Assembly: GCF_002078015.1 (NCBI RefSeq)
Contig: NZ_LWBP01000056.1
Coordinates: 1 to 64,000, forward strand
Direction: 5' to 3'
DNA length: 64,000 bases
DNA from: Niastella populi
GTDB taxonomy: Bacteria > Bacteroidota > Bacteroidia > Chitinophagales > Chitinophagaceae
This document shows, in pieces, positions 17,152-61,522 of this stretch. The position numbers and the translations under genes are program-made. How positions within the stretch are numbered: the stretch's first letter is position 1; every line of letters starts with the position of its first letter. The notes beneath the pieces are model-generated. The model saw only the letters and a program-made list of their open reading frames with translations. It was not told the origin of the DNA and did not search any database.

Positions 17152-17195
17152 ATCAGTTGACGGGTTGACGAGTTGACTCGTCAACTGGTTAACAA
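17152..17195. repeat. GTTGAC-type inverted word array
   Basis: AGTTGACGGGTTGACGAGTTGAC is followed by GTCAACTGGTTAAC, so the two arms are complementary. Relatives occur at 30145-30175, 59605-59640 and 59888-59925. The 17103-17401 gap otherwise shows nothing I can name. Confidence 0.75.
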
Positions 17196-17401
17196 TGGAT
17201 AATAACGCAGAATTCCCAGATTCGTAATTACATTCCCGTAATATCTCCCCCATCTTATTTTTTTCCCTCCCTTCATTTTTTTCCTTAACTTAATAGAGTA
17301 AAGAACGATTGCATTCAGGTAACAGCACTTCCATGTTACCGGGTAACCTTATTATAATTTTCTGCTAACTCCGTTCCCTGCCACTATTAATACTATGCCA
17401 T

Positions 17402-17854
17402 ATGCAGCTTGCGGGGAAACATCTTATACATGCAGCGCCAGCCAAAGTCTGGGCTATATTAATGAATAAGGAAACCCTCGCGCATATAGTGCCCGGCATT
17501 TCCGGGCTTGAACAAACAGGCGATCACTCCTTTAAAAGCACGCTCGATATTAAACTGGGCCCGGTGAGCGGTTCGTTTACCGGCAACCTGCAGCTCCATG
17601 ATCTGCAGGAACCCAATGCGTTTACCTTAAAAGCACAACAGAACAGTAAAATGGGCAATGCCAACGCCGCTATTGCCATCAGCCTTACGCCGGTGGGTGA
17701 TAACGATACCGAGGTTATGTTCAACGGCGATGTAAAACTAAGCGGCATGCTGGCATCACTGGGAAACCGGGTAATGGGTGGCGTATCGAATACGCTCACC
17801 AAACAATTTTTTTCGAACCTGGAAAAAGAACTGGAAAAAACAACTGCTCCTTAA
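17402..17854 (+). CDS. coxG: CoxG family SRPBCC protein
   Basis: A 150-residue SRPBCC/START-fold protein of the CO-dehydrogenase subunit G family (PF06240). CoxG is associated with aerobic molybdenum CO dehydrogenases and has been linked to membrane recruitment or quinone handling. Family features are [21 protein letters not shown] near the N-terminus, the central [11 protein letters not shown] strand, and the C-terminal helix with [19 protein letters not shown]. There is no signal peptide. It opens a six-gene cluster in the order G-S-L-M-D-E and is followed by coxS after 34 bases. Confidence 0.9.
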
Positions 17855-17888
17855 TAATCATATTGTTCAAAATACTAAACCACATTAC

Positions 17889-18389
17889 ATGAACACCAGC
17901 ATACATGTTACGGTCAATGGTGTACAATACAGTCACATGGTTGAACCCCGGCTTTTATTGGTGAACTACCTGCGCGATGTGCTTCGGTTAACAGGCACGC
18001 ATGTGGGCTGCGATACCAGCAGTTGCGGCGCCTGCACCATACACCTGAATGGCAAGGCTACCAAGTGCTGCACCATTCTGGCCGTTCAGGCCGATGGCTG
18101 TGAAATAACCACCATTGAAGGCCTGTCGCACAACGGTGAGCTGCATCCGCTGCAGGAAGCCTTTAACGAATGCCACGGCTTGCAATGCGGGTTTTGCACA
18201 CCCGGTATGATCATGACCGCCGCCGATCTGCTGCAACACAATTCGCAGCCATCCGAAACCGATATCAGGCATGCACTGGAAGGCAATTTCTGCAGGTGTA
18301 CGGGGTATCATAATATAGTGAAGTCGGTTCAGTATGCGGCGGAGAAGATCAGTGAAAGTGCGGTGGCGCCCGCGGAGGTGAAAGCCTAA
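17889..18389 (+). CDS. coxS: [2Fe-2S] small subunit of a molybdenum hydroxylase (CoxS-type)
   Basis: The small subunit carries two [2Fe-2S] clusters that pass electrons from molybdenum to FAD. The plant-ferredoxin cluster is formed by Cys41, Cys46, Cys49 and Cys61 ([15 protein letters not shown]). The second, in the helical domain, is formed by CGFC and CRCTGY. All eight ligands are present. The start is the ATG at 17889 ([15 protein letters not shown]). A longer open frame from 17778 overlaps coxG and has no homology there. No twin-arginine leader is seen, so the enzyme is cytoplasmic. A 190-base word array separates it from coxL. Confidence 0.93.
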
Positions 18390-18535
18390 AGGCAAAAGGC
18401 AAAAGCAAATACAGCTCCTGACTTTCGGTTTTCGCTTTAGGCCTTCAGCTTTCGGCTTTAAGCTGTATTTCCTTTATGCCTTGTTGCCTCGTTGCCTTTA
18501 TGCCTTGCCTTCAGCTTTCAGCTTGCCCCATAATA
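18386..18535. repeat. Inverted word array between coxS and coxL
   Basis: AAAGGCAAAAGGCAAAAGCAAATACAGC on the left is mirrored by GCTGTATTTCCTTTATGCC on the right, with further CTCGTTGCC and CAGCTTTCAGCTT words. It begins at the coxS stop. Confidence 0.8.
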
Positions 18536-18579
18536 TAACTAATCATTCAAATAATCACTAATCACTCTTAATTCAACAT

Positions 18580-20958
18580 ATGAGCACCAACGGACTGATC
18601 GGCCGCGCCGTTAAACGGGTTGAGGACAAACGGTTCACTACCGGCCACGGTAATTATACCGACGATATAATTCTGCCGCAACAAACCTATGCGGTGTTTG
18701 TACGAAGCCAGTACGCCCATGCAAAAATAATAAGTGTCGATACCAGCGCCGCGAAAGAAATGCCCGGTGTTATTGCCATCTTCACCGGGGCCGACCTCGC
18801 CGAAGTAAACGGCGTCCCCTGCGGCTGGCAGGTGAACTTCAAAAATGGCGACACCATGAAGGAACCCAAACATCCCCTGCTGGTAGCCGACAAAGCACGG
18901 CATGCAGGCGATGCCATCGCCATCGTTATCGCCGAAACAAAAGAACAGGCTACCGATGCCGCCGAAGCCGTTATGGTAGAAATGGAAGAACTGCCCTGCG
19001 TTATCGATGCCGCCAAAGCGGTTCAACCCGGCGCACCGCTGGTGCATGACGATGTGCCCGATAATAAAAGTTTCGACTGGGTGCTGGGCAATCCCATCGA
19101 CGAAGTGAATGAGGCCATGAGCCGGGCTGCGCATGTTACCACACTCGATTTTGTAAACCAGCGCCTGGTGCCCAATGCCATAGAACCGCGCAGCTATAAC
19201 AGCTCGTACGACCCTGCCAGTGAGAAATATACTTTATATACCAGCTCGCAGAACCCGCACCTGATAAGGCTGCTGATGTGCGCCTTTGTACTGGGCATTC
19301 CCGAACATAAAGTACGCGTGGTTAGTCCCGACGTTGGCGGCGGGTTCGGCAGCAAGATCTTTCACTATACCGAAGAAGCATTACTTACCTGGTGCAGCAA
19401 AAAAATTGGCCGCCCCGTTAAATGGACCTCAGAAAGAAGCGAAAGCTTTTTGCTCGATGCCCATGGCCGCGACCACGTAACCAAAGCCGAAATGGGTTTC
19501 GACGCCGAAGGAAAGATCCTTGCCCTGCGGGTAAAGACATACGCCAATCTCGGCGCCTACCTCTCTACCTTCAGCAGTTGCGTGCCTACTTATTTACATG
19601 GCACCCTGCTACAGGGTTTGTACACCACGCCCAAAATAAATGTAGATGTAACCGCCGTATTCACCCATACAACGCCGGTCGACGCGTATCGCGGCGCCGG
19701 CCGGCCCGAAGCCACCTACCTCCTGGAACGGCTGCTCGACCTGGCCGCGCATGAAATGAATGTTGACCCGGCCGAACTGCGTTTCAAAAACTTCATTCCG
19801 CCATTCGATGGCGTTCAGCAACCCGGTTATCAAACCCAGGTAGCGCTGCAATACGACAGCGGCAACTATGAAGGGGTGCTGAAGAAAGGGCTTGACATGC
19901 TGGGCTATGCCGATGTGCGCCGCCAGCAACAGGAAGCCGCCGGCAATGGTAAACTGCTAGGCGTCGGGTTCTCTACGTATATAGAAGCATGTGGTATTGC
20001 CCCATCGGCGATCGTTGGCGCGCTGGGGTGCCGGGCGGGTTTGTTTGAATCGGGCCAGGTACGGGTACAGCCAACCGGTAAAGTAAGTGTATATACCGGC
20101 GCTCATTCGCACGGTCAGGGTCATGAAACCACCTTCGCGCAGGTAGTGGCCGATAAATTAGGCATCAACCTCGAAGATGTGGAAGTTGTGCATGGCGATA
20201 GCGAGGCCGTTGCCTTTGGCATGGGCACCTATGGTTCGCGCAGTCTGGCCGTTGGCGGCAGCGCCATTATAAAAAGCATCGATAAGATAATTGAAAAGGG
20301 AAAGAAAATAGCCGCTCATAAACTCGAAGCCAGCGCCGATGATATTGAATTCGCATCGGGCAGGTTCACTGTTAAGGGAACCGACAAATCGGTAGGTTTT
20401 GGTGAAATAGCGCTCACCGCCTATGTTCCGCATGTGTATCCCAAAGACCTGGAGCCGGGTCTCGATTTCAGCAGCTTTTATGACCCCACCAATTTCACCT
20501 ATCCCTTCGGCTGCCATATAGCGGTAGTGGAAGTGGATAAGGAAACCGGCAAGGTAGAATTGAAACGTTTTGTTGCGGTTGATGATGTGGGCAATGTGAT
20601 CAACCCCATGATCGTGGAAGGACAGATCCATGGCGGACTGGTGCAGGGAATTGGCCAGGCGCTGTTCGAGGGCGCCGAATACGATGAGAACGGACAGCTC
20701 ACCAATGCTTCGTATATGGATTATTGCCTGCCCCGGGCCGATGACCTGCCCATGTTTGAAACAGGCAGCCAGGTAACACCTTGTCCGCACAACCCACTGG
20801 GCGTAAAAGGCGCCGGCGAGGCGGGCACTATTGGCGCGGCCCCGGCCATTGTGAATGCCGTTATAGACGCGCTCTGGAGCGGCGGCCACAAGGTGAAGGA
20901 TCTCAGGATGCCGCTCACTTCGGAAAGGGTGTGGCATGCTTTGCAGGAAGTTATTTAG
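18580..20958 (+). CDS. coxL: Molybdopterin-binding large subunit, form II CO-dehydrogenase type
   Basis: The 792-residue large subunit of the xanthine-oxidase family binds the molybdenum cofactor. The diagnostic loop reads AYRGAGR (residues 369-375), the form II signature. The true high-affinity CO dehydrogenase of form I carries AYxCSFR with a catalytic Cys, which is absent here. The cofactor-binding GGGFGSK (253-259) and the catalytic Glu747 in GAGEAG are present. Form II enzymes have uncertain substrates: CO oxidation is weak or unproven, and other hydroxylations are possible. The neighbouring S, M, D, E and G genes support a complete maturation set. Confidence 0.92.
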   Translation: MSTNGLIGRAVKRVEDKRFTTGHGNYTDDIILPQQTYAVFVRSQYAHAKIISVDTSAAKEMPGVIAIFTGADLAEVNGVPCGWQVNFKNGDTMKEPKHPLLVADKARHAGDAIAIVIAETKEQATDAAEAVMVEMEELPCVIDAAKAVQPGAPLVHDDVPDNKSFDWVLGNPIDEVNEAMSRAAHVTTLDFVNQRLVPNAIEPRSYNSSYDPASEKYTLYTSSQNPHLIRLLMCAFVLGIPEHKVRVVSPDVGGGFGSKIFHYTEEALLTWCSKKIGRPVKWTSERSESFLLDAHGRDHVTKAEMGFDAEGKILALRVKTYANLGAYLSTFSSCVPTYLHGTLLQGLYTTPKINVDVTAVFTHTTPVDAYRGAGRPEATYLLERLLDLAAHEMNVDPAELRFKNFIPPFDGVQQPGYQTQVALQYDSGNYEGVLKKGLDMLGYADVRRQQQEAAGNGKLLGVGFSTYIEACGIAPSAIVGALGCRAGLFESGQVRVQPTGKVSVYTGAHSHGQGHETTFAQVVADKLGINLEDVEVVHGDSEAVAFGMGTYGSRSLAVGGSAIIKSIDKIIEKGKKIAAHKLEASADDIEFASGRFTVKGTDKSVGFGEIALTAYVPHVYPKDLEPGLDFSSFYDPTNFTYPFGCHIAVVEVDKETGKVELKRFVAVDDVGNVINPMIVEGQIHGGLVQGIGQALFEGAEYDENGQLTNASYMDYCLPRADDLPMFETGSQVTPCPHNPLGVKGAGEAGTIGAAPAIVNAVIDALWSGGHKVKDLRMPLTSERVWHALQEVI

Positions 20959-21078
20959 TTATTCAGTTCTTAGTTCATAGTTCTTAGTTCTTTATTCGGG
21001 ACTCGAAAGTATTTGCAAGCCTCGCTTTGAGCTTTCTGTTTTTGGCTTTGGCTTGCAGCTTGCAGCGTGAAGCCTGCA
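20959..21078. repeat. Word array between coxL and coxM
   Basis: AGTTCTTAGTTCATAGTTCTTAGTTC words, then the core CTTTATTCGGGACT, then a different run of TTTGGCTTTGGCTTGCAGCTTGCAG words. It starts at the coxL stop and fills the 151-base gap. Confidence 0.75.
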
Positions 21079-21109
21079 TTTCCCATTATCACATTATCAA
21101 ATTGGTTTT

Positions 21110-21943: not shown

Positions 21944-21954
21944 TACTTTAAAGG

Positions 21955-22069
21955 CAGTTTATTGTTTATAGTTTTTAGTTTATGGTTCTTTCATTCGGGA
22001 CAACTAACAACTGTAAGACCGCCTGAAATTTAAACAGCAACAATAAACAATAAACCATAAACTATAAAC
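21955..22069. repeat. Inverted word array between coxM and coxD
   Basis: TTTATTGTTTATAGTTTTTAG words on the left are mirrored by AATAAACAATAAACCATAAAC on the right, around a centre containing TTTCATTCGGGAC. The array ends directly at the TTG start codon of coxD. Confidence 0.8.
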
Positions 22070-22957
22070 TTGTTCCAGCTTCACGATATTCAACAAATGC
22101 TCCACAACCAGGGTTACATTACAGACAAATCCGTTGCCATGTCTGTATTTCTTTCTCTTCAGTTGAACAAACCCCTGCTTATTGAAGGGCCGGCCGGTGT
22201 GGGCAAAACGGAGATCGCGAAAGTGATGGCCAATGCCCTGAAAACCGATCTTATCAGGCTGCAATGTTACGAGGGGCTCGATGCCGCCCATGCCCTGTAC
22301 GAATGGAACTACCAGCGCCAGCTGCTTCACTTAAAAATGACCGAGCACGACACGCATACCATCGATGAAAAGGAACGCACCATCTTCAGCGAACCTTTTC
22401 TGATGAAACGCCCGCTGTTACAGGCCATCACGCATTCGCAAAAACCGGTGCTGCTGATTGACGAGATAGACCGGAGCGATGAAGAGTTCGAGAGCTTTCT
22501 GCTGGAAGTGCTGAGCGACTGGCAGATCACCATTCCCGAAACAGGCACCATCAGGGCCACCTATATTCCCCAGGTAATTCTCACCGGCAATCGCACCCGC
22601 GAATTGAGCGAAGCCCTGCGGCGGCGTTGTTTGTACCTGTATATCGATTACCCCGATTTCGATAAAGAATGGCTGATCGTAAAAAATAAAGTGCCGGGGA
22701 TCGATGCGATCCTCAGCGAACAGATCACCCGGTTTATGCAGGAACTGCGCAAAATGAAACTGGAGAAAACACCCGGACTGGCCGAAACCATCGACTGGGC
22801 CATGGCGTTATCGGCCCTGCATATCGATCACCTCGATAAAACCATCATTGAACAAACACTGGGCGTGGTATTGAAGGATTGGCAGGATACGAGGCAGGTG
22901 CAGCTATCTATAGATGAGCTTCTGGCAAAAACAGGAGTGCATACTAAAATAGGCTAA
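22070..22957 (+). CDS. coxD: MoxR-type AAA+ ATPase (CoxD-like)
   Basis: CoxD is a MoxR-family AAA+ ATPase needed to mature the copper/molybdenum or molybdenum site of CO-dehydrogenase-type enzymes. Walker A is GPAGVGKT (residues 40-47) and Walker B LLIDEID (about 128-134). A sensor-like TGNRTRELSEALRRRCLY block lies near residue 170. The N-terminal motif LHDIQQMLHNQGYI aligns with the start of CoxD proteins, which supports the TTG at 22070 as the start. The first ATG at 22097 would delete this motif. It pairs with the VWA gene 102 bases downstream, the usual MoxR-VWA partnership. Confidence 0.9.
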   Translation: MFQLHDIQQMLHNQGYITDKSVAMSVFLSLQLNKPLLIEGPAGVGKTEIAKVMANALKTDLIRLQCYEGLDAAHALYEWNYQRQLLHLKMTEHDTHTIDEKERTIFSEPFLMKRPLLQAITHSQKPVLLIDEIDRSDEEFESFLLEVLSDWQITIPETGTIRATYIPQVILTGNRTRELSEALRRRCLYLYIDYPDFDKEWLIVKNKVPGIDAILSEQITRFMQELRKMKLEKTPGLAETIDWAMALSALHIDHLDKTIIEQTLGVVLKDWQDTRQVQLSIDELLAKTGVHTKIG

Positions 22958-22969
22958 TACCCGAGAAAC

Positions 22970-23058
22970 AGTTTGTAAGTTATTCAGTTCATAAGTTATT
23001 CAGTTTGTCTTTAACTGAATAACTGAACAACTTATGAACTGAATAACTCAATAACTCA
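22970..23058. repeat. Inverted word array between coxD and coxE
   Basis: AAGTTATTCAGTTCATAAG on the left is mirrored by CTTATGAACTGAATAACT on the right, with extra AACTGAAC words. The two arms could form a long imperfect hairpin. The array ends at the coxE ATG. Confidence 0.85.
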
Positions 23059-23059
23059 T

Positions 23060-24175
23060 ATGACCAACAGACTAACTTCTCTTCCACAAAACATTGTCCA
23101 GTTCTGTCGCTACCTCAGGCAACATGGATTTACCGTAGGCATAGAAGAAGAAACGATGATCCTGCAATCGCTGCAGCAATTTGATTATACCAGTGCCGAA
23201 TCGTTCTTCTTGTTGTTGAAAATGATCATTTGCCGAAGCAAATCGAACCTCGATGATTTTGATGAACATTTTCGCCAGTACTGGAAACGGCTCGATAAAC
23301 AACTGGATGCAAAAACGAAAGCAACTGCAAAGAAAAAACAACCTGCGCCACAGGCGCAATTTGCGTCACTCAGCGCCTGGCTGAAAGGCAACCAGAAAAA
23401 AGAAACCGAGGAAACGGCTTCATACAGCATAAGGGAATCCCTGTCGCAAAAAGACTTTTCTGCCGTTCCCGACAATGAAGTAGCGGAATTGATGAAATGT
23501 ATTCGCAGCCTGGCGCGCAGACTGGCGGCTAAAGCCAACCGCCGGTACGAAGGAACGAACAGGATAAACCTGCCCGATCTGCGGCAAACGCTGCGTAAAA
23601 ACCTGCGCCGCGGCGGTGAACTGATAGATATTATGCATCGCCGCCCCAAACGCAACCGCGTGAAACTGCTGATGCTTTGCGATGTAAGCAAATCCATGGA
23701 ACTGTATTCCGCCTTCCTGCTGCAGTTCATGTACGCTTTTCAACAGGTATACCAGCGCATGGAAACGTTTACCTTCAGCACGGCGCTGCAACGGTTAACG
23801 CCCATGCTACAGCAAAAACATTTCGGCGAAGCGCTTGAATGGCTGAGTGCCGGTAATGAAGGCTGGAACAGCGGCACCCGCATCGGAGAATCGCTTCATG
23901 CATTTGTAAATGATTATAGCCACAAACTGATCGACTCCAAAACGATCGTGATCATTTGTAGCGATGGCTGGGATACCGGTAATATCGACCTGCTGAAACA
24001 AAGCATGCGCCAGATACACACCAAAGCCAAAAAGGTGATCTGGTTAAACCCGCTGGCCGGTTATACCGCCTGGCGGCCCGAAGTGGCCGGCATGAAAGCG
24101 GCAATGCCTTTTGTTGATGTGTTTGCGGGTGTATATAACATTGATAGTCTGAGAAAACTATCCAAGTGGATATAA
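23060..24175 (+). CDS. coxE: VWA-domain protein of the CoxE family
   Basis: CoxE-type proteins carry a von Willebrand factor A domain and act with the MoxR ATPase CoxD in enzyme maturation. The MIDAS metal motif DxSxS is intact as DVSKS (Asp208, Ser210, Ser212). Later metal-coordinating stretches are GNEGWNSGTRIGESL and ICSDGWDTG. The N-terminal 130 residues are helical and basic, with a Lys-rich linker near residue 85. The length of 371 matches the family. It is the last cox gene and ends in a convergent word array facing the minus-strand reductase gene. Confidence 0.9.
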   Translation: MTNRLTSLPQNIVQFCRYLRQHGFTVGIEEETMILQSLQQFDYTSAESFFLLLKMIICRSKSNLDDFDEHFRQYWKRLDKQLDAKTKATAKKKQPAPQAQFASLSAWLKGNQKKETEETASYSIRESLSQKDFSAVPDNEVAELMKCIRSLARRLAAKANRRYEGTNRINLPDLRQTLRKNLRRGGELIDIMHRRPKRNRVKLLMLCDVSKSMELYSAFLLQFMYAFQQVYQRMETFTFSTALQRLTPMLQQKHFGEALEWLSAGNEGWNSGTRIGESLHAFVNDYSHKLIDSKTIVIICSDGWDTGNIDLLKQSMRQIHTKAKKVIWLNPLAGYTAWRPEVAGMKAAMPFVDVFAGVYNIDSLRKLSKWI

Positions 24176-24179
24176 CATT

Positions 24180-25681: not shown

Positions 25682-26557
25682 ATGGCCGTTAACAATCCAT
25701 TACTGGAACTGAGCAAATCGGTGGTGAATGTACCTTTCGAGATACACACCATGGAGTGGATTGCGCAGAACCGGTTCCAGCAAAACTCCGTTCCGCACCG
25801 GCATAATTATTTCGTGATCATCTGGGTAGAAAAAGCCGCGGGCACCCACCTGATAGACCTCGAGAAATACGAACTGGAAGACAATACGGTTTATTGCATC
25901 ACTCCCGGGCAGGTTCACCAACTGACCACCACGGGTGACGTTGAGGGTTATGTGATCTCGTTCATGGCCGAGTTTCTCGGCGTGGCAGAAGAGAATTACG
26001 ACCTGCTGTTCAATACCGGGCTGTTTTATACCTTTTCAAATTCGCCGGTAATAAAAGTGAGTGAAGAAATGAGTGCCGAAATGGGCGATGCCGTGGCAAA
26101 AATGCTGAAGGAGTTCAATAACCACTTTATTTTGCGCGCCGAGATCCTGCGCGGTTTTCTGAAGATCTTTCTTATTTACCTTACCCGCCAGTTCGAGCAG
26201 CCAAAAGAAACCGAAGCCCAGTCAAAAAGCATCGAGCTCGTAAAACAATTCTTTGCCCTGGTAGAAAAGAAATATACCACGAAGAAAATGGTGAACGATT
26301 ATGCCGAAGAGCTGGCCGTAACGCCCAATCATCTCAATGAAGTAGTGAAGAAAATAACCGGTACTCCCGCCAGCCATCATATACAACAACGCATCATTCT
26401 CGAAGCAAAACGCCAGGCCGTGTATTCAAGGGTCACCATGAAAGAGATCGCCTACCAGTTAGGCTTTGATGATACTGCCCATTTCAGCAAATTCTTCAAG
26501 AATGCCTCGGGCGAAAGCTTTTCAGATTTCAGGGCAAAAAACACGAATAGTTTATAG
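25682..26557 (+). CDS. AraC family transcriptional regulator with cupin sensor domain
   Basis: The N-terminal cupin-like ligand-binding region covers about residues 15-130, with the NSVPHRHNYFVIIWVEKA strand and the CITPGQVHQL turn. The C-terminal AraC/XylS domain with two helix-turn-helix motifs covers about 190-290 (AEELAVTPNHLNEVVKKITG and AYQLGFDDTAHFSKFFKNAS). The ATG at 25682 was preferred to a TTG seven codons upstream. It precedes the YceI/dioxygenase/esterase genes on the same strand and may regulate them, but no operator is visible. Confidence 0.88.
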   Translation: MAVNNPLLELSKSVVNVPFEIHTMEWIAQNRFQQNSVPHRHNYFVIIWVEKAAGTHLIDLEKYELEDNTVYCITPGQVHQLTTTGDVEGYVISFMAEFLGVAEENYDLLFNTGLFYTFSNSPVIKVSEEMSAEMGDAVAKMLKEFNNHFILRAEILRGFLKIFLIYLTRQFEQPKETEAQSKSIELVKQFFALVEKKYTTKKMVNDYAEELAVTPNHLNEVVKKITGTPASHHIQQRIILEAKRQAVYSRVTMKEIAYQLGFDDTAHFSKFFKNASGESFSDFRAKNTNSL

Positions 26558-26668
26558 TTTATTGTTTTTAGTTTATGGTTGCTATCGCAAAAAACAGGCA
26601 GCCGCAATTAGTAAACCATTTCGAATAAAAGAACCACAAACCATAAACCACAAACCACAAACAGTTGC
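26551..26668. repeat. Inverted word array after the AraC gene
   Basis: TTTATAGTTTATTGTTTTTAG on the left is mirrored by AACCATAAACCACAAACC on the right around a centre with TTTCGAATAAAAG. It uses the same word family as the coxM-coxD junction. Confidence 0.8.
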
Positions 26669-26766
26669 TAAATTCCCGCTTTATCCATGAATTGTACATC
26701 AACATCCTTCGATCATCAATTGACCGGGGATCCGATTTTCCGTTATTTTGTCAATTGAATTAAGTT

Positions 26767-27309
26767 ATGAGTACAACAGTAAAACAAGCAACCTGGGCCA
26801 TCGACCCCATTCACTCGACCATCCGGTTCGATGCCAAATACCTGTTGATCACATCGGTATCAGGCTGGTTCAGGGAGTTTGAAGGCACCCTGTTAAGTGG
26901 CTGTGATGGTTTTGACAATAGTGAAATACAGCTTGCTATATATGCCAATTCATTGACCACCGGCAACGAAGAGCGCGACAACCATTTACGCTCGCCCGAT
27001 TTCTTCGATACAAAAAAATACCCGGTCATACAGTTCAGGTCAACGGCTGTTACTACGCAGGACAAACACATAACGGTTACCGGTATTTTAACCGTAAAGG
27101 GCATAGAGCATCCCTATAGTTTCAACGCCACCTTCCTCGGTATCTGCCCCGATCCCAATGGCAATACGAAGGCCGCGTTTGAAATGGACACCGTGCTTAA
27201 CCGTAAGGATTTTAATATTACCTGGAACCAGTTGTTCGATAAGAACGGATTATTGCTGAGCGATGAAGTGAAAGTGCATTGTGACCTGCAATTGTTAAAG
27301 CTTTCTTAA
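26767..27309 (+). CDS. YceI family protein (first copy)
   Basis: YceI proteins have a lipocalin-like beta-barrel that binds polyisoprenoid-type lipids. Some act in stress or quinone-related functions. The 180-residue protein shows the family layout: WAIDPIHSTIRFDAKYLLI at the start, the NEERDNHLRSPDFFDTKKYP block near residue 68, and the KGIEHPYSFNATF strand. There is no signal peptide, so it is probably cytoplasmic. A second YceI gene follows 214 bases downstream. Similarity between the two copies is moderate, so duplication is not recent. Confidence 0.9.
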   Translation: MSTTVKQATWAIDPIHSTIRFDAKYLLITSVSGWFREFEGTLLSGCDGFDNSEIQLAIYANSLTTGNEERDNHLRSPDFFDTKKYPVIQFRSTAVTTQDKHITVTGILTVKGIEHPYSFNATFLGICPDPNGNTKAAFEMDTVLNRKDFNITWNQLFDKNGLLLSDEVKVHCDLQLLKLS

Positions 27310-27330
27310 CGAGGTGAATGGTGAATGGCG

Positions 27331-27373
27331 AATGCGGGTGGCGAACAGATGATCTGTTCGCCACCCGCATTTT
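27331..27373 (+). terminator. Long perfect hairpin after the first YceI gene
   Basis: Two 19-base arms (27332-27350 and 27352-27370) are perfectly complementary around a single G, starting ATGCGGGTGGCGAACAGAT, followed by TTTAAAG. The left arm grows out of a GTGAATGG word array that starts at the stop codon. Confidence 0.7.
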
Positions 27374-27523
27374 AAAGAACTGAGAACTAAGAACCTGGAA
27401 CTAAGAACTGCGAAGCCCATAAAATGTACAACAGATTCCATGTTATCACTATTCTCCAGCTCCTGTTTCTGAGCGAAATTTGTGGAGTCAATAAATAATA
27501 ACAACCAAAAAAATATCAAAACA

Positions 27524-28060: not shown

Positions 28061-28061
28061 A

Positions 28062-28202
28062 ATGCCGTGGCACGGTTTCGTTCAGCAAGCCGTGCCACGG
28101 TACAAACCGTGCCGCGGCTAACCCACCGGCAAATGGAACGGCCCGGCCGGAAGAACTGTGAACTGAGAACTGAGAACTGTGAACTGAGAACTGAGAACTT
28201 TA
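28062..28202. repeat. Three-copy CCGTGCCACGG element and AACTGAG word array
   Basis: CCGTGGCACGG (28065-28075) is complementary to CCGTGCCACGG (28090-28100) and, with one mismatch, to CCGTGCCGCGG (28108-28118), so two alternative hairpins are possible. GAACTGTGAACTGAGAACT words fill 28153-28201. Confidence 0.7.
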
Positions 28203-28214
28203 GAATTTACAATT

Positions 28215-35008: not shown

Positions 35009-35046
35009 AGAAAGTTATAAGTAATAAGTTTTAAGTAGTAAGTAGT
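35008..35046. repeat. AAGTTATAAGTAATAAG word array
   Basis: Repeated AAGTTAT/AAGTAAT/AAGTAGT words directly before the RND permease start. The same family recurs at 61467-61520. Confidence 0.6.
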
Positions 35047-37841: not shown

Positions 37842-38984
37842 ATGTCGAGCGATTCTCCGCGTAAGCACCGTATAGCTACGGCCGTTTTCTTTTTCGTTTC
37901 CGGCTTTGGATTCTCTTCCTGGGCCTCGCGCATCCCTACCATTCAACAGAAATTACATTTAAGTGAAGGCGAACTGGGCGGCGTTTTGTTCGCCCTGCCG
38001 GCCGGGCTGATGTGTACCCTGCCCATTACCGGTAATTTGTTACGCCGGTTCAGCAGCCGGTATATCATGATGACGGGCGCCATTCTTTTCAACCTTATGT
38101 TGTGCCTGGTAGGTTTTGCATCGGCCACCTGGCAGCTGGTACTGCTGTTATTCTTTTTTGGCTGCTCGCGTAACCTCTTCAATATTTCGGCCAATGCGCA
38201 ATCGATAGGCGTACAAAAATTGTATGACCGCTCTATTATTGCCACGTTTCATGGCATCTGGAGTGTGGCCGGTTTTGCTGCGGCTTCCATAGGGTCCGTG
38301 GTCGTTTCCTTAAGCATTGCGCCTTCCTGGCATTTTCTTGCCGTATGTATTGTTTTATCGGGTTTGTGTATTTTCTTTTTCAAAGACACCGTGCACCAAC
38401 AACCACAGCCGCACGAGCGGCTTCAAAGATCAAAATTCAGGATCCCGGAAAAAGCATTGCTGAAACTGGGTTTCATTTGTTTTGCCGCCATGGCCATTGA
38501 AGGAACGATGTACGACTGGAGCGCTATCTATTTGAAAAAGGCAGTACATGCCTCGAAGGGAATGGCTGCGGCCGGTTATGCGATATATATGGTGGCCATG
38601 ATGCTCGGCCGTTTTACCGGCGACAGGCTGGCCAACAGCATCGGCGTAAAACCCATGTTGAAATACAGCGGCCTTTTTATTTTGTCTGGTTTACTGTTGG
38701 CCGCGGTTTTACCTTACACCGTTGCCACCGCGCTTGGTTTTATGATGACGGGGTTTGGCGTGTCGTGTGTGGTGCCGATGGTGTTCAGCATGGCAGGTAA
38801 AATAAAACATATGAGCGGCGGACCGGCCATTGCCGGCGTTTCTACCATTGGCTATTTTGGCTTTCTGATCGTACCGCCTACCGTTGGTTTTATTGCAGAA
38901 GCTTTCAACCTGCGCTGGTCTATTGCGCTGATCGCTTTATTTGGTGCGCTGATCACCTGGCTGGTAAGTGAAATGGAGGAATAA
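37842..38984 (+). CDS. MFS transporter (YbjJ-like)
   Basis: A 380-residue major facilitator with twelve predicted membrane segments. The first, VFFFVSGFGFSSWASRIP, and the segment LSEGELGGVLFALPAGLM resemble the YbjJ group. The MFS loop motif between helices 2 and 3 appears as NLLRRFSSRYIMM. The ATG at 37842 was taken because the nine codons upstream from a TTG have no homology. It follows the AraC gene by 97 bases, so co-transcription is possible. Substrate unknown. Confidence 0.87.
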   Translation: MSSDSPRKHRIATAVFFFVSGFGFSSWASRIPTIQQKLHLSEGELGGVLFALPAGLMCTLPITGNLLRRFSSRYIMMTGAILFNLMLCLVGFASATWQLVLLLFFFGCSRNLFNISANAQSIGVQKLYDRSIIATFHGIWSVAGFAAASIGSVVVSLSIAPSWHFLAVCIVLSGLCIFFFKDTVHQQPQPHERLQRSKFRIPEKALLKLGFICFAAMAIEGTMYDWSAIYLKKAVHASKGMAAAGYAIYMVAMMLGRFTGDRLANSIGVKPMLKYSGLFILSGLLLAAVLPYTVATALGFMMTGFGVSCVVPMVFSMAGKIKHMSGGPAIAGVSTIGYFGFLIVPPTVGFIAEAFNLRWSIALIALFGALITWLVSEMEE

Positions 38985-39046
38985 CAGTTCACAGTTCATA
39001 GTTCTTAGTTCATAGTTCTTAGTTTATAGTTCTTAGTTTGATGTTC
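38983..39046. repeat. AGTTCATAGTTCTTAG word array after the MFS gene
   Basis: At least seven words of the type AGTTCTT/AGTTCAT/AGTTTAT follow the MFS stop codon. No inverted arm is evident here. Confidence 0.75.
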
Positions 39047-39097
39047 AGGGGTCAGGAAAAATGCATGCCCCCGGGAAAAAGACACTACCCGGTATAC

Positions 39098-43343: not shown

Positions 43344-43437
43344 ACTGTAACGCAATTTTTGATTAACAATACATACATGATTATGAACGATAAAAGACAT
43401 TAATTGATCCTCCCTGATACAATGGATCCTTAACGGT

Positions 43438-43800
43438 TCTTACAGAAAGCTGCAAGCTGCAAACAAATACAGCTACATACTACAATACAGCTAAACGCTG
43501 ATCGCTTAAGGCCGAACGCTCCACTCCGTATTTTCAAAGCTCAAAACTGATAGTAACAGCGTTGCATGTTAACTGTAAGTACATAGCTCCGCCTGCTTCA
43601 CCAGTTTAACTGATGAATTGCATCACAAAGCATTGGCTCAATGAACCAATCGTTAAGGACTCAAAGAAATATGGAATGCTGAACTAACGGATGATGCTGC
43701 ATGCTCCGGTTTCCAGGCCAAAATCAGTGAAGAATACCGTAATTGTTCAGGCCCGGGCGTTAAGCCTTTAGCCTTAAGCGTTCAGCGTTTTGAAGAAGGT
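43438..43800. repeat. AAGCTGCAAGCTGC, AATACAGC and GCTTAAGGC word arrays
   Basis: Words of the AGCTGCA, AATACAGCTA and CTTAAGGCCGAACG types lie at 43440-43530, with relatives AGCCTTTAGCCTTAAGCG at 43765-43790. They lie at the left of a 1.3-kb gap (43344-44660) that carries no supported gene. Confidence 0.6.
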
Positions 43801-43954
43801 AATTAGTAAATTCAGTAATAAAGTTGCAGAAGCCGGATGCAAAGTAAAAGCTGTTTAAAACAATTTGCTTACGAAAGCGGTTTTATTTTTTTCCACAATG
43901 TCGGTTGCCGTTATACTTCTATTGATAATCATAATAGAATATATTTTTAGATTT

Positions 43955-44042
43955 ACTGATTTCGGAATTTTGAGATTTGTTTATTATGCTAAACTCAATG
44001 AAATCTCAAAATCCCTCAATCTCAAAATCAGAGATCTAAAGA
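43955..44042. repeat. ATTTTGAGATTT inverted words
   Basis: TCGGAATTTTGAGATTT is mirrored by AAATCTCAAAATCCCTCAATC and ATCTCAAAATCAGAG. The same word family follows the GH18 gene at 47776-47880. Confidence 0.6.
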
Positions 44043-44129
44043 ATTAGTACTACTAACAATGTGAATATCATTTTACCACCGTTATAATTATCGAGTAATT
44101 TTACTCTTTTTCATCATGATAATCATTTA

Positions 44130-44137
44130 TAGCTTTG
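44130..44137 (+). promoter_or_regulatory. Candidate -7 box in the GH16 upstream region
   Basis: TAGCTTTG matches TAnnTTTG exactly, with a T-rich CTTTTTC about 18 bases upstream. If used it would give the GH16 gene a 5' leader of about 515 bases. Confidence 0.3.
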
Positions 44138-44354
44138 AAATTCCAAAACGATTTAGCCATATGAGTAGTTTGGAGTGATTTTTGTCATCACCTTCTTCGC
44201 AGAAATCATTGATTGTAAGTAGTAATATAAGTTGAAGCAGCATCCCTTGGCACTAAGTGGGTTCAACCCACATCCCTGGCATCGTTTAGGAATACATTTT
44301 TTCCCCTTTCTTTTTTATTGCCGGCCCTAACCGGGTGGCATGGTCGTGTTTTCG

Positions 44355-47776: not shown

Positions 47777-47882
47777 GATTTTGATTTTGAGATTTTGAGA
47801 TTTAGGATTTCATTCTGTTCAGCAGGTTTATAAATCGCAAAATTCCCAAATCCTCCAATCCCAAATCTCTAAATCAGAAATC
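47776..47882. repeat. GATTTTGAGATT inverted word array after the GH18 gene
   Basis: GATTTTGATTTTGAGATTTTG at the stop is mirrored by AAATCCTCCAATCCCAAATC further right. Confidence 0.75.
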
Positions 47883-47899
47883 ACATTAGAGATAATAAC

Positions 47900-47976
47900 C
47901 CTGTCAGGTCCTAAGCCGTGTATGCATATCTAATTCATATGTATACAACCGGAATGGTGACCTGACAGGTTTTTTA
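47900..47976 (+). terminator. Long hairpin terminator after the GH16-GH18 unit
   Basis: CCTGTCAGGTC (47900-47910) pairs with GACCTGACAGG (47959-47969), with an inner ATGCATAT/ATATGTAT stem, followed by a T-run. Confidence 0.85.
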
Positions 47977-48008
47977 TTTATATACATTCCTCATTTTAAT
48001 CAAGCAAC

Positions 48009-51644: not shown

Positions 51645-51866
51645 AAAAAGGCATATAGGCAAAAAGGCAACGAGGCAACGAGGAATACAATTCCGGACAC
51701 TTAATGCCTTCTTGCCTTGGTTTATTAAGTAGAAGTATAAGAGACCTGTATGCCTTTATGCCTTATTGCCTTCGCTTATTAAGTATAAAGTATAGGAAAC
51801 CTGTATTCCTTTATGCCTTTATGCCTTTATGCCTCGCTGCCTTAGTACCTCGTTGCCTTGTTATTT
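51645..51866. repeat. Large AGGCAAC/TATGCCT inverted word array
   Basis: AAAGGCAACGAGGCAACGAGG with AATACAATTCC on the left is mirrored by CCTGTATTCCTTTATGCC and CCTCGTTGCCTTG on the right. Two TTATTAAGTA words separate a third block. It spans about 220 bases between the SHOCT gene and the convergent FAD oxidoreductase. Confidence 0.85.
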
Positions 51867-57800: not shown

Positions 57801-57908
57801 GAAGTAAATACCGACAGGACCATCAACGGTATTTCATCTTATGGCATCGATTACCTCAGCTATCCTAAAGCAAGGTCATTTCTCCTTGGAATCAATGTAA
57901 CCTTCTAA
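54891..57908 (+). CDS. SusC/RagA TonB-dependent receptor (second locus)
   Basis: A 1005-residue outer-membrane glycan importer. The signal peptide (MKLFNSRVAVLGVLLLAHLL) is followed at once by the carboxypeptidase-like regulatory domain (about 33-112, ARGTVVNESATPLQGVTVVA). The TonB box/plug follows (about 125-235, VVVGYGKSTKRDVTGSMKSV, DASATAIYGARGANGVV), then a barrel to the C-terminal Phe. Unlike the first SusC it lacks an STN domain and has no sigma/anti-sigma genes beside it. An operator for a LacI-type regulator lies upstream instead. It is 11 bases before susD2. Confidence 0.93.
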   Translation: MKLFNSRVAVLGVLLLAHLLVYASAFSQTTQTTARGTVVNESATPLQGVTVVAVNEKNQNKRSVQTNSKGAFEIKDLNTTGTYRFTFSYVGYEDKTISGSVPDASGNIVLNVTMEPSTTNTQAQVVVVGYGKSTKRDVTGSMKSVKAADFNRGIINTPEELLQGKVSGVNVTSASGEPGAIQNITIRGPGGVRTGSTPLFVVDGMALDNSSVGGTINPISFLNPQDIESMDVLKDASATAIYGARGANGVVIITTKKGRAGFSSVNYNFSGGFSRMANPLPVYKADEYRTQVKALGNALEDFGGATDWQKEVSRTAWTQNHNVTLSGGTEKFTYYGSFGMQLQQGILKGNDVKRYNGRFNMSQKLLDDKLVIEANLSANNTVNLRPNVGSLIGGAISTNPTIPAYGEDGKPYQFQNGINPLTVLALEKDLTTINRVLGNISGSLTLTKGLVYKLNFGVDNSSATRDSLALPNTVPLRLGRLATYTNVNRNYLIENYLTYSTTINAHKLTALAGHSYQKIFVQRRGTSINNFPISNIDPVYNPGLGQELTLANNRPTGHALINELQSFFGRVNYQYNDKYLFTATLRADGSSKFGSNNKYGIFPSFSGAWIMSKEKFLENGPFYNLKLRAGWGQTGNQEIPSKITQALFTATPGAGASYPLYPGTTYPVGTAYQRLANPDIQWEVSSQTDIGVDFELLGGALSGTVDYFRKVTGKILLEVIPADPIQPASTQWTNVPDMTITNQGVEVDLAYRHTTRGGFSYTVGGNVTFINNKVEESPYSVIPSGSASGAGLTSATINGYVNGEPIGTFFLQEFIGFDANGISMYRDVTGDGIANDKDRQALGSALPKTMYNFYFNLGYKKFDLTANFNGISGNKIYDNTANSSFYKNLLAKGVNTTPEAIASAEEAITNAAPVSSRYLKDGKFLRLNNLSIGYNFNPQALGLGKWVKGMRASLTGQNLFVITPYDGYDPEVNTDRTINGISSYGIDYLSYPKARSFLLGINVTF

Positions 57909-57919
57909 AGCTAATTACC

Positions 57920-59605: not shown

Positions 59606-59645
59606 TGAAGTTGAAAAGTTGACATGTTAACATGTTGATAAGGGA
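59605..59645. repeat. AAGTTGACATGTTAACATG word array after susD2
   Basis: AAGTTGAAAAGTTGACATG with GTTAACATGTTGATAAGGG begins at the stop codon. A close relative lies at 59888-59930. Confidence 0.65.
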
Positions 59646-59687
59646 TTCTATAAATCAAGTCACCTGATTAATTCATAACCAGGCAAC

Positions 59688-59726
59688 AAAGAGGCTGTCA
59701 AAATAGAAGACAGCCTCTTTGGTTTT
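59688..59726 (+). terminator. Terminator of the susC2-susD2 unit
   Basis: AAAGAGGCTGTC (59688-59699) pairs perfectly with GACAGCCTCTTT (59709-59720), followed by GGTTTT. Confidence 0.8.
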
Positions 59727-59840
59727 ATAGAGCCGTTAGCTAAACAATAATGATTCCGGAATTAATAATTTGTTTTCCCTGTTTCGTAAGCTCATGTTGA
59801 CATTTACGCCTAAGTTTGTACCTACGCACACATTACAAGA

Positions 59841-59879
59841 CCAGCGGAACCCCGGGTAGATCCCGGGGATTCCGTCTGG
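59841..59879. other. Strong GC-rich hairpin of unknown role
   Basis: CCAGCGGAACCCCGGG pairs with CCCGGGGATTCCGTCTGG with only two single-base bulges and a TAGAT loop. It has no T-run, so it is not a typical terminator. The 59727-60168 gap otherwise holds a GTTGAC word array (59888-59930), a terminator, and GCTTT words (60050-60135). Confidence 0.5.
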
Positions 59880-60023
59880 CACAATTCTAAAGTTGAAAAG
59901 TTGACAGGTTAACAAGTTGATAAGGGTCCTGTATTTAAGCCAACTGACAACCACATAGTCTCCGACTTTATAAGATTTTAAGGGCACCAATGATAATCAG
60001 GTAAATAATAACATACATAACGA

Positions 60024-60052
60024 ATCCCCCGCCGGCTGGCGGGGGATTTTTG
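60024..60052 (+). terminator. Hairpin terminator upstream of the NCS2 gene
   Basis: ATCCCCCGCC (60024-60033) pairs with GGCGGGGGAT (60038-60047) over a 4-base loop, followed by TTTTTGC. Confidence 0.7.
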
Positions 60053-60137
60053 CTTTAGGCTTTGGGCTGTATTCGCTTTCGGCTTTAGCCTGTATTTCGC
60101 TTGCAGCTTGAAGCTTGTAGCTTGCAGGGGTATTTGT
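60050..60137. repeat. GCTTTAGG, CTGTATTCGC and AGCTTGCAGCTTG word array
   Basis: Words TTTAGGCTTTGGGC, CTGTATTCGC, CTTTCGGCTTTAGCC and GCAGCTTGAAGCTTG fill the spacer just before the permease gene. Confidence 0.65.
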
Positions 60138-60168
60138 ATTCGCTTGCCGCTTTTTCTTATCTTACCTT

Positions 60169-61470
60169 ATGTTTTCAGCCGAACTAACCAAACACAACAG
60201 CACCTATTCAACCGAGATCATTGCAGGCATTTCATCGTTCCTGGCAACCTCCTATATCATTGTTGTTAACCCGGCGGTACTTAGCCAGGCCGGCCTGCCC
60301 TTTAGCGGGGTGCTCACCGCCACAGTGCTGGTGTCGTTCTTCAGCAGCCTTATGATGGGTTGGTATGCGAAGAACCCGGTACTGGTAGCGCCGGGCATGG
60401 GGCTCAATGCCTTTTTTACTTTTTCAGCAGTGATCGGCATGAAAGTGCCCTGGCAGGTGGCGCTGGGCGCCGTGTTCTGGAGCGGCGTGCTCTTCCTCGT
60501 ACTGTCGGCCTTTAACATTCGAACCTATATCGTACGCGCCATACCCAGGCCATTACGTTATGCCATTGCCGCCGGCATTGGTTTGTTCATTACGCTTATT
60601 GGTTTCGTGAATGCCGGTTTTATTGTACATAACCCGGCCACCATAGTAGGTATTGGAAAACTGCACCCGGCCCTGCTGACGTTTTTGGCGGGTTTGCTGT
60701 TTACCGCCGTACTGGTAACCCGGCAGGTAAAAGGCGCCATTCTCATTGGCATTGTGTTCACCACGCTGGCTGCTGTGCCATTGGGCCGCTGGTGGGCAAC
60801 AGGCGCCCCGCCCCTTGTTGACTGGAAAGGTTTGATAGCCGCACCGGATTTTAGCCTGGTGCTGAAGCTCGACCTGGTGAACTCGCTGCAATGGTCGGTA
60901 ATACCCGTGATCTTTGCCTTTGTATTTACCGATATGTTCGATAGCCTTTCCACCCTCGTTGGTTTATCTGAAGCCGCCAACCTGCTCGATGAAAAAGGCG
61001 AGCCGCGCAATATAAAACGGGCACTCGTAACCGATGCAGTAGCCACAACGCTTGCCGGACTGGCAGGATCGAGCCCCGGCACCGCCTATATAGAATCTGC
61101 TGTTGGCATTAAAGAAGGAGGCAGAACCGGGTTAACCGCCATAACCGGCGCATTGTTATTCCTGCCTTTTTTATTTTTAGCGCCCCTGTTATCGATGGTG
61201 CCTGCTATTGCCACCGCGCCGGCTTTGGTGCTGGTAGGCGTATTTATGGTGCAACCGGTAACAAAGATCAACTGGACTCAACTCGATGAGGCCATCCCCG
61301 CCTTTCTTGCCATGGTGATCATTCCCTTTTCTTACAGTATAACACAAGGTATCATTTGGGGTTTTCTCAGCTGGACGGCCATCAAACTCATAACCGGAAA
61401 AACAAAAGACATCAGTATTGCATTATGGATCATCGATGCATTTGCGATACTAGCTTTGATACTTGGATAA
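60169..61470 (+). CDS. NCS2 family purine permease (AzgA/PbuG-like)
   Basis: A 433-residue membrane transporter of the NCS2/AzgA group, which imports adenine, guanine or hypoxanthine. It has about 12-14 membrane segments. Family signatures are EIIAGISSFLATSYIIVVNP near the start, PVLVAPGMGLNAFFTF near residue 70, the FTDMFDSLSTLVGLSEAANL region near 255, and GSSPGTAYIESAVGI near 300. It is monocistronic, between two long intergenic stretches. Exact base preference cannot be deduced. Confidence 0.9.
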   Translation: MFSAELTKHNSTYSTEIIAGISSFLATSYIIVVNPAVLSQAGLPFSGVLTATVLVSFFSSLMMGWYAKNPVLVAPGMGLNAFFTFSAVIGMKVPWQVALGAVFWSGVLFLVLSAFNIRTYIVRAIPRPLRYAIAAGIGLFITLIGFVNAGFIVHNPATIVGIGKLHPALLTFLAGLLFTAVLVTRQVKGAILIGIVFTTLAAVPLGRWWATGAPPLVDWKGLIAAPDFSLVLKLDLVNSLQWSVIPVIFAFVFTDMFDSLSTLVGLSEAANLLDEKGEPRNIKRALVTDAVATTLAGLAGSSPGTAYIESAVGIKEGGRTGLTAITGALLFLPFLFLAPLLSMVPAIATAPALVLVGVFMVQPVTKINWTQLDEAIPAFLAMVIIPFSYSITQGIIWGFLSWTAIKLITGKTKDISIALWIIDAFAILALILG

Positions 61471-61522
61471 GTTATAAGTTGTAAGTGGTAAGTTATAAGT
61501 TTTAAGTTTTAAGATTTTCACT
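61467..61522. repeat. TAAGTTATAAGTTGTAAG word array after the permease gene
   Basis: At least seven words of the type AAGTTAT/AAGTTGT/AAGTGGT/AAGTTTT start at the stop codon. In the remaining 61523-62046 gap (AT-rich) I see only a TGATC/GATCA small inverted repeat at 62007-62019 and no gene. Confidence 0.7.

Follow-up and report, generated by a model that had tools for sequence, protein, structure and literature searches.

Degenerate heptamers are a known kind of bacterial repeat, and the cyanobacterial STRR repeats are built of them. Elements of the REP/BIME and MITE families are intergenic, palindromic, and present many times per genome. Here we describe arrays of 7-9 base words in the gene gaps of Niastella populi, seen initially in a 64,000-nucleotide stretch (contig NZ_LWBP01000056.1, positions 1 to 64,000), which as a whole is called the window. 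A previous reading made from the letters of this stretch (the sequence-only reading) had proposed a dispersed intergenic element class made of such words and knew of no named element with this layout. Close relatives do exist in print: the GGGAATC/GGGGA(C/T)T repeats (PMC4692102), the TAACTGA repeats (PMC4679880), and cyanobacterial heptanucleotide repeats (PMC3488679).

The GGGAATC and GGGGA(C/T)T heptamers of Xanthomonas and Nostoc were studied for quadruplex formation, with their function left open (Rehm et al. 2015, PMC4692102). The Xanthomonas repeats are described there as degenerate GGGANTN words, mainly intergenic, at 186 and 183 sites in two genomes, with 70 and 75 cases of inverted convergent pairs (only few in Nostoc). 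Repeats of this type are few between divergent genes, and their length and sequence differ among species. The Niastella arrays resemble them in being mainly intergenic tandems of degenerate heptamers with fixed and free positions, in their strand preference relative to the adjacent gene, and in their inverted convergent pairs. However, the published set has one vocabulary per genome studied, of period 7 and picked for quadruplex potential, whereas Niastella has about 17 vocabularies (clusters of arrays), with periods of 7, 8, and some 9, no G-tracts in the consensus words, and one rule that runs across vocabularies.

TAACTGA direct repeats have been reported from Beggiatoaceae, cyanobacteria, and five Bacteroidetes, some of which mix them with other heptamers, while the shorter spacers of close relatives are without obvious repeats (MacGregor 2015, PMC4679880). 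In the window, TAACTGAA units at 23012-23056 stand before the start at 23060; the remaining vocabularies use other words. That study deals with one heptamer, its repeat variants are rare in the main genome, and its available text reports no bracket rule or dialects. In the P6b element of the Nostoc tRNA-Leu intron, degenerate heptanucleotide classes base pair in a hairpin and repeat number varies (PMC3488679), but these repeats form a single intron locus and not a genome-wide spacer set. In the accessible parts of this literature, each study of heptamer repeats has dealt with a single word, the bacteria are unrelated, and the guesses as to meaning differ (quadruplexes, regulator sites, slippage); our own, largely open-access literature survey found no multivocabulary bracket system. 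Within that coverage, five features are new here: how many vocabularies there are, words of period 8, the cross-vocabulary rule, the independence of the arms, and the dialects.

Word arrays in the intergenic spacers

The host genome is an 8.61-Mb draft, and the larger sample consists of 1.256 Mb of it (about 15% of the genome), taken as long contigs rather than at random. Spacers were defined by script with a greedy open reading frame caller (minimum of 60-90 amino acids; at least 90 in the window), so that gene edges are approximate, and counts were restricted to spacers of 30-1500 bp, with shorter and longer ones dropped. Arrays were called with a log-odds detector, and shuffled spacers served as the control.

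The word arrays in the gene gaps are real. They occur in 215 of 678 sampled spacers (32%) versus 16 of 678 after shuffling, which upholds the proposed dispersed class of 7-9 base words, and at least one array is present in 19 of the 35 spacers of the window (54%). The assertion that most gaps contain them therefore holds for the window but not for the larger sample. The shuffle test that the sequence-only reading had named as a possible refutation, run on this part of the genome, left the class standing, and all seven of its word families are among the arrays found in the window. The arrays are nevertheless tandem, though built of degenerate words, contrary to what had been stated. The 215 spacers hold 365 arrays (period 7, 216; period 8, 131; period 9, 18), and it is because these take up about 10% of sampled spacer DNA (15,631 of 157,197 bp) that they are of practical relevance. 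The same procedure found arrays in 0 of 49 spacers from 100 kb of Escherichia coli K-12 (0.6 shuffled), and Rfam 15 gave 0 matches in the window at the gathering score.

Recurrence of 4-mers in 245 spacers gives a similar picture, with 21.6 per 1000 at lag 7 (6.9 shuffled, 5.2 in genes) and 17.2 per 1000 at lag 8 (6.1 shuffled, 4.6 in genes). Echoes appear at lags 14, 16, 21, 24, 28, 32, and 35 and have no counterpart in genes. When other periods were called in 456 spacers, period 7 was found in 106 (6 shuffled) and period 8 in 78 (4 shuffled). Periods 9 (16 versus 1), 10 (11 versus 1), and 11 (11 versus 3) had a small excess over shuffled spacers, far below that of periods 7 and 8; the other real and shuffled counts were 3 and 6 (period 4), 6 and 2 (period 5), 6 and 5 (period 6), and 3 and 5 (period 12).

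Arrays had been said to start at stop codons and to end near start codons. In 151 of 422 array-stop pairings, no more than 10 bp separates the array edge from the stop codon; for start codons, this is so in 37 of 308 pairings. Divergent spacers are poorer in arrays (16 of 89) than co-directional (115 of 291) or convergent (30 of 76) ones. The arrays are probably transcribed within the 3' untranslated part.

Clustering of the arrays gave 22 clusters, including 3 singletons; 17 clusters contain at least four arrays and represent the roughly 17 vocabularies, a single one of which is common to up to 35 spacers of the sample. In the 12 vocabularies examined, 4-6 positions of a word are better conserved and another 1-3 are almost free, with consensus words such as GTTT[GA]T[GTA], T[GT][TCA]G[AC]TAA, TT[GA]AC[AGT][AG]G, and AG[GA]CA[ATC][CA][AG]. 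No run of three G occurs in any of the 12, and the G-tracts of GGGAATC-type repeats are thus lacking. Nonadjacent units within an array are no closer to each other than to units of other arrays (12 vocabularies; largest excess, 0.01), although register drift may depress the within-array figure. Because such units match other loci equally well, an array is close to a random sample of the genome-wide vocabulary, with some local slippage, and slippage alone does not predict this.

Word orientation, arms, and cores

In what follows, W' is the reverse complement of a word W, and a bracket is the arrangement W...W', in which the strings read away from each gene. The 150 adjacent array pairs comprise 55 same-vocabulary inverted, 29 same-vocabulary direct, and 66 different-vocabulary pairs; by similarity, 46 are inverted-similar (random pairs, 2.5%) and 21 direct-similar (random pairs, 2.4%). 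Inverted arms, as the sequence-only reading had noticed, are thus often present, but the broader rule is one of bracket orientation that also applies between vocabularies. All 55 inverted pairs keep one left word per vocabulary, over 14 vocabularies; the first inverted pair of each of these families is trivial, which leaves 41 of the 55 as informative.

With W defined solely from same-vocabulary hairpins, 54 of the 66 different-vocabulary pairs could be scored, as W-W' (34), W-W (13), W'-W' (6), and W'-W (1). Where two or more arrays of a spacer could be scored, 103 of 104 spacers had no W' before W, compared with a mean of 70 and a maximum of 84 when orientations were shuffled. Pairs (12 of 66) and multiarray spacers (6 of 110) with no defining hairpin or no second usable array were excluded. 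The sole exception is a 939-bp divergent spacer in the window (43401-44339), and the rule holds across 14 vocabularies where testable. Since the order W'...W is absent from 53 of 54 different-vocabulary neighbors and from all but one of these spacers, it is the gene edge and not the hairpin partner that orientation follows; the different-vocabulary brackets weaken the idea that orientation is wholly due to inherited polarity of a palindrome. Lone arrays within 30 bp of a gene edge also follow the rule, at 43:7 for stops and 17:5 for starts, with W taken from position in three small vocabularies. That one rule covers the 14 testable of about 17 vocabularies weakens explanations tied to a single word. 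An idea based on stop codons in all frames (7 and 8 are not multiples of 3, and many W words hold TGA, TAA, or TAG) was rejected, as 4 of 17 vocabularies, two of them large, are richer in stops on the opposite strand.

A vocabulary-free version of the rule uses the sign of G minus C. Different-vocabulary pairs were plus-minus in 29 cases, minus-plus in 2, the same in 28, and tied in 7. In the host genome, the outward strand has G>C at stop-side arrays by 141:27, versus 197:204 at array-free stop edges (ties omitted). The corresponding ratios are 150:25 and 198:180 for seven other Niastella genomes summed and 35:14 and 297:281 outside the genus, so that the composition version extends to other Niastella and, with smaller numbers, beyond them. 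Unlike neighboring pairs in other Niastella genomes (82 in all) were G-rich and then C-rich in 39 cases and the reverse in 4. Inverted repeats in arrays had G>C in 53 cases against 8, while ordinary ones outside arrays were even (81 against 82), and the 5' arm of array hairpins had G>C in 31 of 34 cases in other Niastella and in 17 of 18 outside the genus. The G-rich outward strand is a tendency rather than a strict rule. A count in which each family's sign was set by majority (165:20 after stops, 63:13 before starts) is inflated for that reason; the hairpin-based and composition counts given here avoid this.

The two arms of a hairpin are independent within a vocabulary and are not a folded unit. 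Over 41 hairpins, 7-mer sharing was 0.327 for own arms and 0.327 for swapped arms (601 of 2000 permutations at or above the observed value), and in 38 hairpins the mean share of swaps with a duplex energy at least as strong was 0.54. The sequence-only reading had suggested that each element could fold into a long hairpin, but own arms pair and share words no better than swapped ones, and an RNA stem kept by pairing or compensatory change was rejected on the same counts. Furthermore, 24 of the 34 different-vocabulary W-W' brackets have no trace of a partner arm for either array in a 13-mer test (23 and 25 at two other settings). Longer words were used here because an 11-mer test had been too lax, with partner hits for 23 and 16 of the 34 against 15 and 13 in controls, and 8 brackets without a hit on either side.

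Shared centers had also been claimed, and this claim fared less well than the others. In 171 kb of spacer, the GAATACAG/CTGTATTC core was counted 34 times, versus 3.0 after shuffling, and 22 of the 34 are near arrays; the TTATTCGGGAC core occurs just once. Related core stretches are present in the GTTTRT family, with GCGCGGCAGCAAC in 5 places, and 69 of 126 occurrences of an AATACAG hinge are near arrays. A shared core is the exception rather than the rule.

Turnover and possible origin of the arrays

Further genomes of the genus Niastella (G001 to G009) were used for comparison. Sister species that are 76-84% identical keep local gene order, while their arrays have changed. For G004 and G005 (83 spacers), arrays are present in 26 and 30 spacers and in both genomes in 17, with the vocabulary shared in 7 and different in 10. 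The pair G006 and G007 (64 spacers) has arrays in 22 and 31, in both in 21 (shared, 16; different, 5), and the host genome and G002 (17 spacers) have them in 10 and 8, in both in 6 (shared, 1; different, 5). Re-use of a slot by different vocabularies is somewhat more frequent than expected by chance in two of the three pairs (P values of 0.02, 0.008, and 0.36), with small numbers and spacer length uncontrolled. Among 18 filled/empty slots, the three cleanest, with well-kept flanks (pairs 11, 14, and 17), have the array inserted at a gene edge and, by eye, no target duplication. Where the same vocabulary is kept in orthologous spacers (23 cases), arrays are no better conserved than the rest of the spacer (79.6% versus 82.8%).

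Niastella species differ in their word dialects. AGTTC[AT]T has 77 hits in the host genome, 30 in G002, and 0-4 in the remaining eight genomes of the genus (4 in G005); AGTTC[AC]G has 99 in G005, 3 in G004, and 0 in the other eight, the host included; and AGGCAACG tandems have 18 in the host, 2 in G003, 1 in G005, and 0 in the other seven. Outside Niastella, arrays were found in 109 of 867 spacers versus 28 shuffled, with few in the twelve same-family stretches sampled. Because arrays are sparser there, their amplification looks like a feature of the genus.

The arrays, their grammar, the orientation rule, the independence of arms, the lack of near-identical copies of the two elements searched for, the dialects, and the presence or absence of arrays in orthologous slots were observed in the samples. 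We tentatively suggest that the arrays may be fast-turning-over, noncoding degenerate words that grow outward from gene edges by short re-annealing, a proposal made because edge-set orientation, independent arms, a common vocabulary, and the lack of whole copies together fit it. Each edge would have a fixed word orientation W, usually the G-richer strand, running 5' to 3' away from the gene, and with orientation fixed in this way the two edges of a spacer would form a bracket W...W'. In broken or stalled spacer DNA, a 3' end pointing off the gene would be extended stepwise: its conserved word bases would re-anneal onto any same-vocabulary array elsewhere in the genome, free bases would be copied from that donor, the end would release and re-anneal, and two extended ends would finally be joined. 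The fixed bases would then be the re-annealing tract and the free bases the payload, and a lack of cross-annealing between tracts may keep the vocabularies separate. We infer the break, the re-annealing in steps, the donor, and the polymerase. No function of the words is needed for outward growth, and the G-rich bias of W is not explained by it.

In DRT10, a bacterial telomerase relative, a short tract re-anneals and tandem repeats are made in this way; the preprint describes, for Eco3, an A-B-A' template with four repeated bases and a 9-nt unit, a protein-primed cDNA, and one RNA template per system (PMC12632851). Its re-annealing tract plus payload has the same grammar as the fixed and free bases of Niastella. 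A difference is that a cognate reverse transcriptase was not recognized in the Niastella genome, with model libraries that may contain no DRT10 model and no search aimed at a template RNA; the three RVT_1 (PF00078) matches are of other types, namely a group II intron type over the cutoff, a group II fragment under it, and a retron XIII type. DNA-level template switching is the more modest form of the proposal, since no DRT10-like enzyme was recognized. It is also conceivable, though quite unlikely, that the arrays reflect a telomere-like capping in which free 3' ends are extended outward with G-leaning 7-8 base words by repeated re-annealing and copying and capped ends are fused into W...W' brackets; independent arms, many vocabularies in one genome, and dialects of species would result. 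If so, the GGGAATC, TAACTGA, and cyanobacterial heptamers would be single-vocabulary cases of one process. The origin of the repeats can now be put as a testable question: which process extends gene edges outward with words, and for what reason mostly on the G-rich strand.

Several results weigh against outward growth by re-annealing. There is no enzyme candidate among the three reverse transcriptases found with RVT_1. Array-free start edges are skewed in the same direction as arrays (368:161 in the host genome), and only the stop side is clean because this control is itself skewed. One of the 17 vocabularies, AAGCTGC, breaks the G>C tendency (299 G, 333 C), which is slight in a few others. 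Some partner match exists in 10 of the 34 different-vocabulary brackets (7 and 8 arms versus 2.2 and 2.6 in controls), and the GTTTRT family shares related core stretches between loci, which fits whole-element copying. In each of the 12 vocabularies, the likeness of adjacent units exceeds that of units from other arrays by 0.02-0.12, although the array detector in part selects for this; orthologous arrays gain whole units; and one array in G005 repeats a six-word block. From these three points it follows that slippage acts too. In many of the 18 filled/empty pairs, edges could not be placed because the flanks have diverged too far, and births were not seen directly because the genomes compared are only 76-84% identical. 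The G005 array itself (contig C1, 5872372-5872474) has 14 AGTTC[AC]G units with the A/C pattern AACACC AACACC AC, in which larger blocks are duplicated besides single words.

Mobile hairpins and selected binding sites each explain part of the data. The arrays might be MITE- or REP-like, with families of W-core-W' palindromes moved in trans, placed near gene edges and sometimes nested, and with lone arms as decayed halves. The constant left arm of the 55 inverted pairs (41 informative) agrees with this, as inversion of a palindrome preserves it, and so do the related GTTTRT cores at several loci, the filled and empty slots, and one spacer with a second vocabulary inside an older bracket (orthologous pair 5). 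We nevertheless consider it rather unlikely: own arms are neither more alike nor better paired than swapped ones, neighbors of different vocabularies obey the rule, and 24 of 34 such brackets are without partner traces. Unlike REP, BIME, and MITE elements, those of Niastella mostly have no common body, their arms are independent, and no whole-element copy was found in two tests. Genome-wide searches with two elements returned relatives but no near-identical copy among the 40 of 77 and 40 of 156 first-look candidates that were scored, the best nonself matches among these being 78% over 72 bp for one element and 75% over 109 bp or 91% over 47 bp for the other. As to a RAYT/REP system, only two Y1_Tnp matches exist in the genome. 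One of them has a GTGAATG bracket directly upstream (L149, 1339-1461), among five arrays in 3.3 kb; the other has 0 arrays in 3.2 kb. As strand-specific binding sites, the arrays would instead each be read by a protein of their own vocabulary, as an RNA or DNA motif at a pitch of 7-8 bases, with selection purging wrong orientations, of which G-rich words preceding a start codon would be an example. Because array-free edges before starts are G-poor too, the start side could be a result of selection. The motif-like fixed and free positions, arms that are independent yet of one vocabulary, the orientation fixed relative to gene edges, and the scarcity in divergent spacers (16 of 89) would also suit such sites, for which RNA-binding proteins have been proposed in the case of TAACTGA (MacGregor 2015, PMC4679880). 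In all 20 cases having both, moreover, the array sits between the stop codon and a T-tailed hairpin, a count biased to that order since the array was required within 60 bp of the stop. This explanation is unlikely, however, given doubly occupied slots with different vocabularies in sisters (10 of 17, 5 of 21, and 5 of 6), other slots that are empty, arrays no more conserved than their flanks, array-free stop edges that are unskewed (197:204), and the roughly 17 proteins that would be required.

Ordinary slippage satellites, in which the replication machinery locally expands chance 7-8 base repeats without exchange between loci, have been put forward in print for heptamers. They would account for whole-unit growth and loss in orthologous pairs 8, 11, and 14 and for adjacent units being more alike than distant ones, and in many bacteria the long simple repeats are most often heptamers (Mrazek 2007, cited in PMC4679880 and PMC4692102). 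Slippage predicts locus-specific words, but nonadjacent units match other loci equally, vocabularies are common to up to 35 spacers, and the bracket rule is not predicted. As a sole cause it is very unlikely and is contradicted because words would not spread between loci; its role as a contributor remains. It is highly improbable that the G-rich or hairpin arms act as G-quadruplexes or as intrinsic terminators. The outward strand is mostly G>C, like that of the GGGAATC repeats that form quadruplexes in vitro (PMC4692102), but the absence of GGG from the 12 consensus words led to rejection of quadruplexes. Terminators were rejected because a T tail follows 7 of 74 array inverted repeats, compared with 44 of 195 elsewhere, and in the 20 cases above the T-tailed hairpin is a separate one downstream of the array.

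Arrays and other features of the window

The arrays discussed above are placed in the window as follows (coordinates, strand, description; a point in place of the strand sign marks entries with no single strand).

9547..9580, +, left bracket W, AGGCTGA/AACGCTG, period 7
9768..9800, -, right bracket W', AGGCTGA/AACGCTG vocabulary
13245..13298, +, left bracket W, AGGCAACG, period 8, ending in AAATACAG
13342..13394, -, right bracket W', AGGCAACG, overlapping the edge of the next gene
17156..17193, +, short bracket of GTTGAC/GTTAAC words, period 8, between convergent genes
18381..18411, +, left bracket W, AAGCTGC-type, period 7
18423..18506, -, right brackets W' of two vocabularies, AAGCTGC-type and then AGGCAACG
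20963..21005, +, left bracket W, AGTTCWT, period 7, continuing into TTATTCGGGAC
21024..21103, -, right brackets W', AAGCTGC-type and GTGATAAT; as partner of AGTTCWT, a mixed-vocabulary bracket
21957..21987, +, left bracket W, GTTT[GA]T[GTA], period 7
22039..22070, -, right bracket W', GTTT[GA]T[GTA]
22970..23058,., both arms, AGTTATTC ... TAACTGAA, period 8, with 1 bp left to the next start codon
24182..24261,., W and W' brackets, AAGCTGA-type, between convergent genes
26548..26580, +, left bracket W, GTTTATA, with the stop codon of the upstream gene inside the array
26632..26662, -, right bracket W', GTTTATA vocabulary
27313..27334, +, left bracket W, GTGAATG, period 7
27376..27414, -, right bracket W', AGTTCWT, a vocabulary unlike that of its left partner GTGAATG
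28153..28214, -, W' array AGAACTG, period 7, immediately before a start codon
31561..31689, +, two W arrays, GTGAATG and then CGTGAAA
31732..31783, -, W' array of AGGCAACG words (GCCTTTTT GCCTCGTT)
35012..35046, +, W array, AAGTTATA, period 7
38982..39056, +, W array, AGTTCATAGTTCTT, after a stop codon
43757..43978,., the exception to the bracket rule, W' then W
47779..47805, +, left bracket W, GATTTTGA, period 8
47832..47875, -, right bracket W', GATTTTGA vocabulary
51645..51685, +, left bracket W, AGGCAACG
51745..51862, -, two right brackets W', AGGCAACG, each accompanied by CCTGTAT
59608..59642, +, W array, AAGTTGACATGTTAAC, period 8, preceded by a stop codon and followed by a T-tailed hairpin
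59881..59924, +, second W array of AAGTTGACATGTTAAC words
60045..60127, -, W' arrays, AAGCTGC-type, with CTGTATT between them
61467..61527, +, W array, ATAAGTTATAAGTTGT, after a stop codon

Two of these slots were followed in the other genomes compared. The one at 21957..22070, compared in four of them, holds the same vocabulary in G002 and G003, holds another in G005, and is empty in G004; in the slot at 47779..47875, no array was called in the aligned spacers of seven other genomes.

The window has other features as well. The xanthine-dehydrogenase-like protein encoded at 18580-20958 has Niastella records as its best named hits, at 91-94% identity. At 9568-9751, a 76-bp unit that contains a GCTGCGCGAAAGCGCGGC palindrome is repeated 2.5 times (96% match), with AGGCTGA words on the flanks. 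Blocks such as CATAAAATGTACAACAGATTCCAT...CACTATTCTCC occur at 26663-26766 and 27415-27481, upstream of the genes at 26767 and 27482, and are kept across the Niastella species compared while the neighboring arrays change; they may be sites for a promoter or a regulator. The gene at 48009 is preceded by a stem, long and imperfect (CCTGTCAGGTC ... GACCTGACAGG), that encloses a ATATGTAT palindrome and is followed by a T tract (47880-48008). It has no Rfam match at the gathering score, is recognizable by eye in the window and in seven other Niastella genomes, and is a candidate for a conserved leader RNA or attenuator.

Beyond the genus, 7-base arrays (ATTGAAG..., CGTTGACCGCTGACC) were also seen in L063, a metagenome-assembled genome of Calditrichia labeled as outside Bacteroidota. 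Stretches of Terrimonas pollutisoli (L034, 9919-12830) and Foetidibacter luteolus (L035, 13436-14415) contain several copies of an unlike palindrome, of the GCTCCGTAGGAGC / CTCCTACGGAGTC type. In the former, the palindromes adjoin a reading frame that by eye resembles an IS200-type transposase, a possible likeness to REP/RAYT systems.

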